Shown here: positions 49,851-63,548 of the stretch, one piece after another
How positions within the stretch are numbered: position 1 is the stretch's first letter
How the letters are laid out: the number at the start of each line of letters is the position of its first letter
Assembly: GCA_021324615.1 (NCBI GenBank)
Contig: JAJPIT010000003.1
Span: 1-64,000 of the forward strand
Direction: 5' to 3'
Length of the DNA stretch: 64,000 nt
DNA from: Terriglobia bacterium
GTDB taxonomy: Bacteria > Acidobacteriota > Terriglobia > Bryobacterales > Bryobacteraceae
Made by a program: the position numbers and the translations under genes
The notes under the pieces: generated by a model
What the model was told of the DNA's origin: nothing
Database searches by the model: none
Seen by the model: the letters and a program-made list of their open reading frames with translations, nothing else

Positions 49851-50279
49851 ATCGGGCCGGCCATTCGGGAAGGCGCGCAAGCGGCCGGCCCCGCCGCGCC
49901 TGAAACGTAAGACAACCCGCAACCGCGGCCGGCTCGATTTGCGCACGCAAACTCGCGGCGGCCTTACCAGGAGCAATCCCGCTTCCATCGCGGCATGGCC
50001 GTCCAAATACCTGGAGCACGGGCGGTTCGCGGTATTTCTTGGGCGTCCGGCGGCCCGCGGCGTTCCCTCCAATGCCTCTTAATGGCGCGGATCTTCCATT
50101 TTTGCCGGCCCTCGGCGACGCCCGGCGCCGATGGCGACGTTCAGGCCGCCCGGATGCGTTTTGGCGAACCGCATAGTGACGCGGCCCCGCCGGGTCGGGT
50201 GCCGCCGCCGGCAACCCGGCAGTGGTTCGCCGGCAGGGCGGGCAAAGCGCGCAAGACGGTTTAGTATGATAGAGATTCT
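49851..50279. other. Intergenic region between divergent GNAT and cyclophilin genes
   Basis: This stretch of 429 bases has no convincing gene. At 50189-50220 on the plus strand a GC-rich hairpin can form (outer gccgggt/acccggc, inner tgccg/cggca). TATGAT at 50265-50270 is the likely -10 of the cyclophilin gene with a three-base leader. I could not match the region to a known riboswitch class. Confidence 0.4.
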
Positions 50280-50945
50280 ATGAAACGCATCCTGACGATT
50301 CTGTTGCTGGGCGGACTGGTCTTTGCCCAGAGCAAGACCGCCACGAAGACCGGCGCGGGGAGCAAAGCGGCGCCGGCGGCATCGCACGCCCCGGCGGTCT
50401 ATCGCGTGAAGCTGACCACCACCAAGGGCGACGTCGTCGTCGAGATCACCCGGGCCTGGGCGCCGCTCGGCGCGGATCGCTTCTATCAACTGGTCCGCAG
50501 CGGATTCTTCACCGGCGCGCCGTTTTTCCGGGTGATCCCCAATTTCATGTGCCAGTTCGGCATCAGCCCGACGCCCGCCTTGAACAAGACCTGGGAAGCG
50601 CGGCGCCTACTGGACGATCCCAAACCCTATCAGTCCAACAAGCGCGGGACGCTGACGTTTGCCACCACCGGCCAGCCCAATTCGCGCGGCACGCAGCTTT
50701 TCATCAACTATAAAGACAACACCTTCCTCGATTCGCAAGGCTTCGCGCCGATCGGCCAGGTGGTGGAAGGAATGGAAGTCGCCGAGCAGTTTTACTCCGG
50801 CTACGGCGATACGGCGAACAAGGAAGGTGAGATCGAAAACGGCGGCCAGGCGTATCTGGACCGCAACATGCCGCACCTCGACAAAATTATCCGGGCGGTG
50901 GTGGTGCCGGCGGCGCCGAAACCCCCGGCCGATGCGAAACAGTAA
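50280..50945 (+). CDS. Exported cyclophilin-type peptidyl-prolyl isomerase
   Basis: Periplasmic folding catalyst of 221 aa. The signal peptide is MKRILTILLLGGLVFAQ, followed by an Ala/Thr/Lys linker and the cyclophilin domain (VKLTTTKGDVVVEITRAWAP, FFRVIPNFMCQFG, LTFATTGQPNSRGTQLFINY). The usual catalytic Arg in the FHRVI motif is kept as FFRVI. The C-terminus is a short Pro/Ala tail. Promoter TATGAT lies nine bases upstream. Confidence 0.93.
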   Translation: MKRILTILLLGGLVFAQSKTATKTGAGSKAAPAASHAPAVYRVKLTTTKGDVVVEITRAWAPLGADRFYQLVRSGFFTGAPFFRVIPNFMCQFGISPTPALNKTWEARRLLDDPKPYQSNKRGTLTFATTGQPNSRGTQLFINYKDNTFLDSQGFAPIGQVVEGMEVAEQFYSGYGDTANKEGEIENGGQAYLDRNMPHLDKIIRAVVVPAAPKPPADAKQ

Positions 50946-59643: not shown

Positions 59644-60171
59644 TTGCCGCAGCCGCTATTTTATGAGCGCCAGAACTTCCGGCCGCTGCGCATGCGCCTG
59701 CTCACCGGGGTCGCACCCGCCGCGATGCTGGTCTTGACCATTCTGCAAGCCGGCTTCGGTATTCACCGCGGCGCGCAAAGCGACGGCAGCCTGATCGGCT
59801 GGACCATTTTTCTGTGGCTGGTCTACTGGCGTTTGATGATGGTCCGGCTGGTGACGGAGGTGGATCCGCGGGAGGTGCGCGTGGCCTTGCGGGGGCTGTG
59901 GCGGTCGCGGAGAATTCCTTTCCAAGAAATCATTTCCGCCCGCGTGGTTTCTTTCGATCCGGTGCGCGACTGGGGCGGCTATGGCGTGCGGGTCACCCGC
60001 CGCGGCCGCGCGTATCTGGCCGGCGGCAACCAAGGTGTGGAGCTGGAGACCGGGCGCGGCCTGGTCCTGATCGGATCCCGGCGGCCGGCGGAGCTGGCCC
60101 GCGCCATCACGGCGCAACTGGCGGCGGGTGACCCGGCCGCCTCCGGAGAAGATCAGCGCCCGTCCAGGTAG
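59644..60171 (+). CDS. Membrane protein of unknown function (PH-like domain)
   Basis: A 175-aa protein with two N-terminal helices (LLTGVAPAAMLVLTILQAGF and LIGWTIFLWLVYWRLM). A cytoplasmic beta-rich part follows, with VTEVDPREVRVALRGLW and WGGYGVRVTRRGRAYLAGGN, then GVELETGRGLVLIGSRRPAE. That pattern resembles bacterial PH-like or DUF6141-like domains. The start is TTG 59644, two bases after the TolC-type gene, so it probably belongs to that operon. Its last 19 bases overlap the end of the convergent TPR gene. Confidence 0.68.
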   Translation: MPQPLFYERQNFRPLRMRLLTGVAPAAMLVLTILQAGFGIHRGAQSDGSLIGWTIFLWLVYWRLMMVRLVTEVDPREVRVALRGLWRSRRIPFQEIISARVVSFDPVRDWGGYGVRVTRRGRAYLAGGNQGVELETGRGLVLIGSRRPAELARAITAQLAAGDPAASGEDQRPSR

Positions 60172-60941
60172 CGGCCCCGGAGATGGTCGGCTTGCGCGCC
60201 TTTGAGATCGCCGATGGCGCGGCGCGATTCGGCGCGGGCGAAGTAGGCGGGCGCCTCATCCGGGCTCATGGCGATCACCTGATCGAAGTCGGCGATGGCC
60301 CGCCGGTGTTGGCCCAGCAACTGAAGCGTGGCCCCGCGCTGGAAATAGTTATCCGCGTTGGGCGCCAGCTCCACGGCGCGGGAAAAATCGTCCAGAGCCC
60401 TTTGCGCATCGCCCAGATAGCGCTCGGCGGTGCCGCGGATGTTGTAGGCCGCGGCGAGCCGGGGATCGTTTTGCAGCGCGCGGCCGGCATCCAGGATCGC
60501 GCCCTGGAAATCCTTCGCGTCGAGGTAGGCGGAAGCGCGGGCGAGCAGCGCCGCGGTGTCGCCGCGGCGGATCTCCAGCGCCTTGCTGAAGTCGGCGATG
60601 GCGCGTTCGGTCTGGGAATCGCTCGCGTAGGCCTCGCCGCGCATGAGGTAGGCGTCGGCGAAGTCCGGCTTTAAGGCGATGGCCCGGTCGAAGGAGAGAA
60701 TCGCCTGGCTGTATCGCGCGGATTTCAGCAGGCGGACGCCGGCGTCGTAGGACTCCTGGGCGCGCAGCGGATCGACGGATCGTTTGTAGAGCCATCCGGC
60801 AATGCCAGCCGCCAGCAGCACCGCCGCGCAGCAGGCGGCAACGACGCGGCGCTTGCGGCGAGCCACGTCCTCCGCCGTGACCGGGATGAGGACCAGCGGT
60901 GCGGCGGCGGGGGGCGTCTTTCCCTGGAGCTGGTCGGCCAC
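60153..60941 (-). CDS. Membrane-anchored TPR protein
   Basis: A 262-aa protein with a short cytoplasmic N-terminus and one helix (VVAACCAAVLLAAGIAGWLY). Five or six TPR units follow on the far side (YSQAILSFDRAIALKPDFAD; TERAIADFSKALEI; AQRALDDFSRAVEL). The start is GTG 60941, exactly six bases after TATCAT on the minus strand, predicting a leaderless mRNA; the frame to 60983 overlaps rnhA. It diverges from rnhA across 16 bases. Confidence 0.78.
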   Translation of the reverse strand: MADQLQGKTPPAAAPLVLIPVTAEDVARRKRRVVAACCAAVLLAAGIAGWLYKRSVDPLRAQESYDAGVRLLKSARYSQAILSFDRAIALKPDFADAYLMRGEAYASDSQTERAIADFSKALEIRRGDTAALLARASAYLDAKDFQGAILDAGRALQNDPRLAAAYNIRGTAERYLGDAQRALDDFSRAVELAPNADNYFQRGATLQLLGQHRRAIADFDQVIAMSPDEAPAYFARAESRRAIGDLKGAQADHLRGRYLDGR

Positions 60942-60946
60942 AACCC

Positions 60947-60953
60947 TATGATA
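60947..60953. promoter_or_regulatory. Symmetric -10 element shared by rnhA and a TPR gene
   Basis: TATGATA reads TATGAT on the plus strand (60947-60952) and TATCAT on the minus strand (60953-60948). Predicted starts fall at 60959 (rnhA ATG at 60958, second ATG at 60961) and at 60941, the first base of the GTG of the TPR gene. With only 16 bases between the start codons, one element must serve both directions. Confidence 0.55.
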
Positions 60954-60957
60954 GTGG

Positions 60958-61404
60958 ATGATGAAACGCGTGCAACTGATCACCGACGGCGCCTGTCTGG
61001 GAAATCCCGGCCGCGGCGGCTGGGCGGCGATCCTGCGCTACGGCGACCACAAACGCGAATTGGCCGGCTCGTCGCCGCAGACCACCAACAACCGCATGGA
61101 ACTCACCGCCGCCATCGAAGGGTTGAAGGCCCTCAAGGAGCCCTGCGAGGTGGAGATCGTCACCGATTCGGAGTATTTGAAAAACGGAATCACGCGGTGG
61201 ATTCACGGCTGGAAACGCAACGGCTGGAAGAGCAGCGCGAAAAAACCGGTGCTCAACCAGGATCTGTGGACTGAGCTCGATCGGCTCGTGGCCCGCCACA
61301 AGGTCCATTGGACCTGGACGAAAGGACACGCCTCCCACGCGGACAACAACCGGGCCGATGAGCTGGCGGCGGAGGCGGCGCGGCGGCAGAGCCGGAGCGG
61401 ATAG
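60958..61404 (+). CDS. rnhA: Ribonuclease HI
   Basis: Removes RNA from RNA-DNA hybrids. The 148-aa protein has the full carboxylate set: [19 protein letters not shown] (Asp), [13 protein letters not shown] (Glu), [15 protein letters not shown] (Asp) and [11 protein letters not shown] (Asp). [10 protein letters not shown] carries the flexible His loop. The gene is probably leaderless and translation may begin at the second ATG (60961). Confidence 0.96.
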
Positions 61405-61930: not shown

Positions 61931-63084
61931 GAGTCGCCCAATAATCTGCCGTAGGCGCGCAGCTCGCCCACGTTATCGCAGATCGCCTTAATCGCGGCGG
62001 TCATGGGGATGGCCAGCAGCAGTCCGATGCCGCCCCACATCAGGCCCCAGAACATCAGCGCCAGGGTCACCGCCAGAGGATTCAGATGCACCCGCGCGCC
62101 GACGAACTTGGGATACAGCAGATTCAGCGCAAACAGGTGCAGCAGCGAGACGCTGGTGGCGATAAACAGATACAGGCTGGGCTTGGCATGCATCGGCAGC
62201 GCGGCGAACATCGGCGGCAGCATCGCCAGCGGCAGCCCGACGTAGGGCACCAGGCTGAGGAAACCGCTGAGCGGCGCCACCAGCAGCCAATAGGGCAGCT
62301 TGACGGAGGCGAACAGGATCGCGCTGGCAAGACTCAGCAGCAATCCCAGCAAAAAATTGCCGATCACGTAGGCTCGCACCATTTCGCCGACGCCGGCCCA
62401 GGCCGATTCGGCCGAATCGCGTTGCTCGCCTTCGAACATCAGCAGGAACCGCGCGCGCAGGTGATCGCGCCAACTGAGCAGAAAATAGACCAGGAACGGC
62501 ACAAAAGACGCCATCAAAACCGTGTTATAGAACGAACTCAGATAATTGGAAACGGCGCTGAAAACGGTCGCCGGCTCCTGGCGCACGCGAACTTCCTGGA
62601 TCGGCGGAGGCTGCTGCGGCGGTGCTGGCTGCGAGGCCGGACGTTTTTTCCCGCGCGCCGGCTGCGGCGGCTCGGCCGGCGGCGGCGCCTGCTCCTGGAA
62701 ACGCTTGGGAACCAGCGCGCGGTAGATTCCGGACTCAAAATGCTCGAAACGATCCGCCGCGTTATCCACCAACTCATTGATGCGGTCGCTGTAGGCCGGC
62801 AGATCGGAGAGGATCGAAAGCGACTCGGTGTACAAGCCTAATCCGGCAAAATAGAGAAAAACCAGACCGATCGCGCATACCGCGAAGCTGGCCACCCCGC
62901 GCGGCAGCCGCATCCGCATGAACAGAACCACCAGCGGATCCAGCAGAAACGCGATCATTGCGGCGATGATCACGGTTACAAAGAAAATCCGGCCGAAATA
63001 AAGCAGGGCGATGGCGGCGCACAGCGCCAGTACGCCCGCGCCCGAGCGCACTGTCTCCCGCGAGGATGAAACCGGCACCGCCAT
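61927..63084 (-). CDS. AI-2E family transporter (PerM/YhhT-like)
   Basis: A 385-aa inner-membrane protein with about eight helices in the AI-2E exporter layout. FVTVIIAAMIAFLLDPLVVL is near the start, SNYLSSFYNTVLMASFVPFL in the middle, and VPYVGLPLAMLPPMFAALPM and KFVGARVHLNPLAVTLALMF near the end. Residues about 135-175 form a Pro-rich insertion (QEQAPPPAEPPQPARG and so on) in the large soluble loop, which is unusual. The substrate of such proteins varies (quorum signal, sodium/proton, others). TATAGT at 63098-63093 predicts a two-base leader. Confidence 0.87.
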   Translation of the reverse strand: MAVPVSSSRETVRSGAGVLALCAAIALLYFGRIFFVTVIIAAMIAFLLDPLVVLFMRMRLPRGVASFAVCAIGLVFLYFAGLGLYTESLSILSDLPAYSDRINELVDNAADRFEHFESGIYRALVPKRFQEQAPPPAEPPQPARGKKRPASQPAPPQQPPPIQEVRVRQEPATVFSAVSNYLSSFYNTVLMASFVPFLVYFLLSWRDHLRARFLLMFEGEQRDSAESAWAGVGEMVRAYVIGNFLLGLLLSLASAILFASVKLPYWLLVAPLSGFLSLVPYVGLPLAMLPPMFAALPMHAKPSLYLFIATSVSLLHLFALNLLYPKFVGARVHLNPLAVTLALMFWGLMWGGIGLLLAIPMTAAIKAICDNVGELRAYGRLLGDS

Positions 63085-63092
63085 TGATTATC

Positions 63093-63100
63093 ACTATAAT
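63093..63100. promoter_or_regulatory. Overlapping divergent -10 elements (yqgF and AI-2E-type transporter)
   Basis: ACTATAAT contains TATAAT on the plus strand (63095-63100) and TATAGT on the minus strand (63098-63093). Predicted leaders are four bases for yqgF (GTG 63111) and two bases for the transporter (ATG 63084). The gap between start codons is 26 bases. Confidence 0.5.
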
Positions 63101-63110
63101 TGTACGGATC

Positions 63111-63548
63111 GTGGATTACCACCGAAAAGCAGTTGAAAGACGGATTCTTGCGCTCGATTTAGGGAAAAAACGCATCGGACTGGCGCTGAGCGACCCGCTG
63201 GGCATCACCGCGCAGGGCCTTCCCACGCTGGAGCGGACCAATCTCCGCGCGGATCTCGACGCGCTGGACCGGCTGGCAAAGGAGCATGAGGTAACGTTGC
63301 TGCTGATGGGGAATCCCCTGCATATGAGCGGGCAGGAGGGGCGGCAGGCAGCCTACGCGCGGGACTTCGCCGCGCGTCTGGAGAAAAAGACCGGGATCGA
63401 AGTCCAATTCTGGGACGAGCGTCTCACCACCGTGGAGGCGCAGCGGGTGCTGCGCGAAAGCGGGATCAGCATCGAAAAGCGGGCCCGCGCAGTGGACCGG
63501 CTGGCCGCGGTGATTCTGCTTGAGAGCTATCTGGAGCGCCAGCCATGA
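63111..63548 (+). CDS. yqgF: Putative pre-16S rRNA nuclease / Holliday junction resolvase-like YqgF (RuvX)
   Basis: RNase H-fold nuclease implicated in maturation of the 5' end of 16S rRNA. The GTG at 63111 gives 145 aa. ILALDLGKKRIGLALSDPLG holds the first catalytic Asp, FWDERLTTVEAQRVL the second acidic site, and ARAVDRLAAVILLESYL the third. The frame from 63066 runs through the promoter and is rejected. It is followed by the mltG start after 22 bases, a common pairing. Confidence 0.92.
   Translation: MDYHRKAVERRILALDLGKKRIGLALSDPLGITAQGLPTLERTNLRADLDALDRLAKEHEVTLLLMGNPLHMSGQEGRQAAYARDFAARLEKKTGIEVQFWDERLTTVEAQRVLRESGISIEKRARAVDRLAAVILLESYLERQP

Follow-up and report, generated by a model that had tools for sequence, protein, structure and literature searches.

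A symmetric -10 element between a divergent TPR gene and rnhA in a Terriglobia genome as a probable two-way promoter of two predicted leaderless mRNAs

The window analyzed here is a 64,000-nucleotide (nt) stretch of a Terriglobia bacterium genome (Acidobacteriota, Bryobacteraceae; contig JAJPIT010000003.1, positions 1 to 64,000; assembly size 3.94 Mb), in which the divergent genes for a TPR-repeat protein and ribonuclease HI (rnhA) are separated by a gap of 16 bases (60942-60957) containing the heptamer TATGATA. We consider it probable that this heptamer forms the core of a sigma-70-type promoter working in both directions, which originated from a TPR gene that arrived in reverse orientation and would produce a leaderless TPR mRNA and an rnhA mRNA beginning 0-2 nt from its ATG. 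Directly observed are the heptamer, its distances to the two start codons, its retention alongside the gene pair and the absence of a further good -10 in the vicinity. Taken separately and judged from sequence, a two-way promoter is likely, a leaderless TPR mRNA very likely and a leaderless rnhA mRNA in the source genome likely. An initial annotation of the gap had arrived at a similar reading, which is largely right, and the observation is stronger than first thought. The features of the locus are as follows, with d denoting the number of nucleotides from the first base of a hexamer to the start codon.

60153..60941, minus strand: TPR-repeat protein gene (262 amino acids; Pfam TPR_1, 7.4e-27)
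60939..60941, minus strand: GTG start of the TPR gene, its first base being the predicted transcription start; the gene-calling script picked the same GTG
60942..60946, minus strand: spacer from the heptamer to the TPR start, read from the sequence and the alignment
60947..60953, both directions: candidate symmetric -10 heptamer TATGATA, which recurs in relatives with the same gene pair
60947..60952, plus strand: -10-like hexamer TATGAT on the rnhA side (5/6 to TATAAT; d = 11 to the ATG at 60958 and d = 14 to the ATG at 60961)
60948..60953, minus strand: -10-like hexamer TATCAT on the TPR side (5/6 to TATAAT; d = 12 to the GTG)
60954..60957, plus strand: spacer from the heptamer to the rnhA start (GTGG here, purines at 3 of 4 positions)
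60958..61404, plus strand: rnhA, ribonuclease HI (Pfam RNase_H, 5.9e-49; NCBIfam NF001236 above cut-off)

The sequence from 60939 to 60963 is CACAACCCTATGATAGTGGATGATG. As initially annotated, TATGATA is -10-like on both strands, each hexamer matching TATAAT at 5 of 6 positions, and the reciprocal pairing of -11A with -7T is present, with A60948 and T60952 on the plus strand and the same two base pairs used by the minus strand. Assuming a 6-nt spacer, transcription is predicted to start at 60941 on the minus strand (the G of the GTG) and at 60959 on the plus strand, 18 base pairs (bp) apart, a geometry that bears out the earlier placement of the starts on the GTG and within a base or two of the rnhA ATGs. 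Position 60959 is base 2 of the first of two candidate rnhA ATGs (60958 and 60961, plus strand) and lies two bases before the second, which is the more likely start because the 13 relatives with the same gene arrangement and no double ATG begin at the ATG of the matching codon. Since the A at -11 and the T at -7 of the hexamer on one strand are paired with those of the other, RNA polymerase would be able to bind TATGATA facing left or right. Leftward transcription would yield a leaderless TPR mRNA starting on the GTG, and rightward transcription an rnhA mRNA starting 0-2 nt from the ATG, probably that at 60961; we infer from the sequence where transcription begins, that the element serves both directions and that translation is leaderless. 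The TPR protein contains an N-terminal hydrophobic stretch (judged by eye). TATGATA occurs three times over the two strands of the window together, compared to an expectation of 0.65 (at least three in 1 of 100 shuffles), and by our arithmetic the chance of encountering it in a given 16-base gap is approximately 1e-4. Recurrence among related genomes is stronger evidence than this single match.

rnhA was matched in 85 of 101 genomes, and its upstream region was examined in 50 of these, one per genome (L001-L050), and additionally in G009; L051-L060 were read and left out of the counts, L051 being apparently the same locus as L002 on a contig of equal length, and no rnhA was found in G006. Eighteen genomes, 17 of the same genus and G053 of another genus, encode the TPR gene divergently from rnhA and are hereafter called linked, including G012, in which the contig breaks inside the TPR start and the TPR distance was read by eye. 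The comparison sets were four congeneric genomes whose TPR gene is located away from rnhA (unlinked) and 28 genomes belonging to other genera. The pattern [T/C]AT[G/C]ATA is present between the TPR gene and rnhA in all 18 linked genomes and absent within 48 nt of rnhA in all 32 others (0/4 unlinked of the genus, 0/28 of other genera). The first T of the heptamer (T1) is kept in 16 of the 18, with C in G008 and G053, and the middle position holds G in 13 genomes and C in the remaining five. On the TPR strand, TATSAT was identified at all 22 TPR genes (18 linked and four unlinked), with sites located by motif search or by eye and the unlinked patterns selected by eye. In an alignment of 87 heptamer-anchored columns, conservation of at least 90% is confined to five core positions and one A (offset 11), the core columns being partly conditioned on the [TC]AT[GC]ATA search that anchored the linked sequences. 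This conservation across 18 genomes suggests that the symmetry may be used by the genes on both sides. The proposal of one symmetric -10 for both genes thus gains from the linked relatives, but symmetry as such is no proof, and its use as stand-alone evidence was rejected: an A follows the hexamer in 24 of 80 cases genome-wide, yet three of the four unlinked TPR genes keep the heptamer. A second rnhA copy (C48:67737-68174, 64% identity) is encoded in G004 beside the linked copy.

The TPR start is positioned at d = 12-14 in 15 of the 18 linked genomes (17, 17 and 20 in the others, G004 being counted by its ATG at d = 17 with an in-frame TTG also at d = 11) and in all four unlinked ones. The rnhA start lies at d = 11-15 in 11 linked genomes, five of which, including the source genome, contain a double ATG at 11 and 14. 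Both sides are of the leaderless type in 10 of the 18; the earlier statement that both products are leaderless accordingly stands for the source genome and nine of the 17 other linked genomes and does not extend to the seven with a more distant rnhA. Judged from these distances, leaderless rnhA is not a conserved property of the arrangement. The further assertion that seven bases carry all initiation signals was overstated, as purine-rich spacers beside the core are conserved too (16/18 on the rnhA side) and start codons and spacing matter.

Predicted leaderless-type genes are ordinary in this genome. In a sample of 675,535 bases of this genome, with 436 gene starts evaluated, the TANNNT counts upstream of starts have maxima of 25 hits at d = 12 and of 21 at d = 14 over a background of 3.67 per position, and 98 occurrences over d = 11-18 contrast with approximately 29 expected, an excess of approximately 16 per 100 starts, which is a rough figure because a simple script picked the starts by coding score; of the 461 predicted genes, 25 with less than 60 nt upstream were excluded. 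A similar prevalence is given in the available excerpt of Zheng (2011; PMC3160421), where three Acidobacteria average 13.3% TANNNT leaderless genes (9.7-19.4). The commonness of leaderless-type genes here supports both hexamers as promoters: TANNNT is located about 12 nt upstream on both sides (TPR d = 12, rnhA d = 11/14), and rnhA d = 14 coincides with one of the two genome-wide peaks. A leaderless GUG is not odd in itself, since GUG starts make up 29% of leaderless mRNAs in Propionibacterium acnes according to an excerpt of PMC3848588. The distance d = 13 dips genome-wide (25, 10 and 21 hits at 12, 13 and 14), yet it is the commonest TPR distance in the relatives (12/18). Another TATGATA (50265-50271), 15 nt upstream of a plus-strand gene start at 50280, resembles a leaderless-type promoter.

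Four lines of evidence, namely the sole hexamer, a purine run and the changes in G009 and G019, say yes to a putative use of the rnhA side as a promoter. Rival hexamers were defined by at least 5/6 matches to TATAAT with A at position 2 and T at position 6 within 200 nt on the rnhA strand. The element is the only such hexamer in 16 of the 18 linked genomes (0.17 per 200 nt expected from mononucleotide shuffling), and none was identified in G008 and G053, where the element itself scores lower. No rival is therefore present in any of the 18 (approximately 50 nt covered in G012), which supports the initial annotation. Furthermore, the four bases 3' of the core on the rnhA side are all purine in 16 of 18 linked compared to none of four unlinked genomes (Fisher 0.002, uncorrected for relatedness), the exceptions being the source genome (GTGG, 3/4) and G010 (2/4). 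A like tendency towards purines is seen in genes whose -10 lies at leaderless distance, and the run stays with the -10 and not with the ATG. A role of the run as rnhA Shine-Dalgarno sequence was rejected, as it remains beside the -10 while the ATG shifts; a genuine Shine-Dalgarno sequence is possible in G016, where AGGAGGAG precedes the ATG. The remaining two lines come from relatives with informative single-sided changes. G009, which the rpoB tree places as sister to linked G007, yielded no TPR gene and encodes an FtsX-type permease upstream of rnhA; an apparent relic of the TPR start remains, the rnhA-strand TATCAT is intact 22 nt before rnhA, and the TPR-strand hexamer reads CATGAT. Conversely, G019 encodes the TPR gene away from rnhA, with the TPR hexamer intact and the rnhA-strand T lost.

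The gene order in relatives points to how the arrangement may have arisen. At 27 of 28 other-genus loci, two of them recognized from partial matches, and in all four unlinked genomes of the genus, rnhA is preceded on its own strand by dus, which encodes a dihydrouridine synthase (Pfam Dus). Eleven of the 18 linked genomes retain dus followed by the reversed TPR gene and then rnhA (L153, L154, L158-L160, L163-L165, L167, L168 and L172), the dus and TPR matches ending at most approximately 75 bases apart in 10 of these loci and approximately 1 kb apart in L164; for the other seven, which include the source genome, a search of the flank gave no dus. Since rnhA follows dus elsewhere and the TPR gene lies reversed between the two in these 11 linked genomes, a TPR gene that came in backwards, carrying a leaderless promoter of its own, probably separated rnhA from dus and, by way of -10 symmetry, provided rnhA with a promoter. 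Its arrival would have cut rnhA off dus, and the TPR -10, read backwards, would have become the replacement promoter of rnhA. More generally, and tentatively, the locus may represent a promoter capture in which a reversed leaderless gene severed rnhA from its neighbour and gave it a TATSATA promoter, creating a two-way unit for two leaderless mRNAs that spans approximately 25 bp with its start codons and whose core persisted through much of the radiation of the genus; we regard this as possible, at somewhat less than even confidence. A single clean event for the linked genomes is unsupported: in an rpoB tree covering 13 of the 18 linked and three of the four unlinked genomes, one linked clade including G053 was rejected by the approximately unbiased (AU) test (p<0.001). 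For the linked genomes of the genus alone, G009 among them, the AU test gave p=0.155 with all codon positions and 0.029 with positions 1+2.

Several observations weigh against a two-way promoter of this origin. The distance to rnhA ranges from 11 to 39 nt overall, and d = 19-39 in seven of the 18 linked genomes implies a short leader. Most of the heptamer is required by the TPR strand alone, and T1, the sole rnhA-specific base, offers no contrast, being kept in 16/18 linked and 3/4 unlinked genomes. The source genome's own rnhA-side spacer is not all purine, the reciprocal changes in G009 and G019 are single cases, and the G009 assembly is fragmented, with 82% completeness and 6% contamination. 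A T at -18 is absent at both predicted starts (C at 60941 on the plus strand, A at 60959 on the minus strand), and a two-hexamer scan of 60600-61300 gave no match and no -35 of the scanned type, such a scan being uninformative for promoters without a -35 consensus. One of the 28 other-genus rnhA genes has a TANNNT at d = 11-16. The history is also not simple, as rpoB rejects a single clade uniting the linked genomes and G053, and the tree of rnhA, in which G000 and G010 group with the unlinked clade, disagrees with that of rpoB.

Part of this evidence would also fit a leaderless promoter of the TPR gene alone, with incidental symmetry and an rnhA promoter elsewhere, for instance a weak one within the coding sequence of the TPR gene. 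Conservation is highest for the TPR-strand hexamer (22/22), which lies at a nearly constant distance, three of four unlinked TPR genes retain the heptamer without rnhA, the rnhA distance varies widely (11-39 nt), and the rnhA-strand hexamer falls below 5/6 in G008 and G053. We nevertheless consider this explanation unlikely, because it leaves rnhA without another hexamer of at least 5/6 within 200 nt on its strand in all 18 linked genomes (approximately 50 nt in G012), while rnhA is found at d = 11-15 in 11 of them, the rnhA-side purine run is common just where rnhA adjoins, and G009 retains the rnhA hexamer without a TPR gene. In addition, the gene upstream of rnhA points in the opposite direction, so that rnhA would not be fed directly by an operon running its way. 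A palindromic operator for a regulator of one or both genes, in place of a -10, would be in line with the longer palindrome of some genomes, such as TTCTATGATAGAA in G015, but it is improbable given that outside the core one column (A) of the 87 anchored ones reaches 90%, that the start-codon spacing fits the genome-wide -10 position and that a -10 would still be required, with no other good candidate seen. Chance resemblance of a short AT-rich gap to a -10 in a 63% GC genome is the least plausible explanation and very improbable. In a 17% genome sample, three of the 61 divergent pairs separated by no more than 400 nt do have -10-like hexamers that overlap and lie at d = 11-16 from both starts, all three within the window and one of them (46162) weak, but coincidence would hardly account for an element carried by 18 of 18 linked genomes and none of 32 others, with flanking columns diverged.

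A 2021 study by Warman and colleagues in Nature Microbiology is reportedly the founding paper on bidirectional promoters from -10 symmetry. How far the second direction of two-way bacterial promoters serves a gene is debated, and a two-way promoter at the TPR-rnhA locus would be a case in which it does, the symmetry possibly letting a gene survive separation from the gene next to it. Should both mRNAs prove leaderless, approximately 25 bp would accommodate the core of the promoter together with the two translation starts, a natural minimal module for divergent expression. Excerpts of a later paper (NAR 2026; PMC12825309) and of Middlemiss (2023; PMC10268837) describe such promoters as established, with starts 7-25 bp apart and most often 18, and, in one of the two, with a stimulating but not obligatory T at -18. 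The element described here likewise shares a two-strand -10 with paired -7 and -11 positions and a predicted 18-bp spacing. In contrast to the promoters in these excerpts, both products are genes and both mRNAs are predicted to be leaderless, with starts predicted from sequence; the word 'leaderless' is absent from the main text of both papers. The second RNA is often non-coding according to one of the two, and such promoters favour mRNA according to the other.

The TANNNT approximately 12 nt before the start is shared with the TA-led leaderless genes of Zheng (2011; PMC3160421), which the available part of that paper treats singly, whereas here one element would serve two start codons. The prpD (Rv1130)/Rv1129c pair of Mycobacterium tuberculosis (Cortes 2013; PMC3898074) is also divergent with both transcripts reported to be leaderless, one from a valine codon, and closely juxtaposed divergent promoters are called common there; unlike in our reading of the TPR-rnhA locus, the excerpt contains no statement of a single shared -10. 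Divergent promoters with overlapping polymerase sites and exclusive binding are likewise known from the EcoRV restriction-modification system (PMC5333194, in excerpt), in which, unlike here, the core promoters overlap partially and are regulated by a C protein; a leaderless transcript is described there for AhdI and apparently not for EcoRV. In the part of the literature on leaderless genes, divergent or overlapping promoters and restriction-modification systems that was covered, no single -10 was described as shared by a pair of leaderless genes, which is weak evidence of absence. Both -10 symmetry and leaderless genes are known; their combination appears to be new.

The idea that many similar pairs exist in the genome was rejected, as the 17% sample gave just three among 61 divergent pairs. 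One further divergent pair in the window (63051-63111) consists of genes for an AI-2E transporter and ruvX, with the hexamers TATAAT (plus strand) and TATAGT (minus strand) overlapping at a shift of 2 and starts at d = 16 (GTG, 63111) and d = 14 (ATG, 63084); 27 bases of this site are identical in L051, where the surrounding 400 bases are 89% identical. On another contig of the same genome (C12; L141, 5751-5776), a 20-nt divergent gap contains TATTATG, a near-symmetric second candidate recognized by eye, in which TATTAT is located 14 nt upstream of one start and CATAAT 13 nt upstream of the other.
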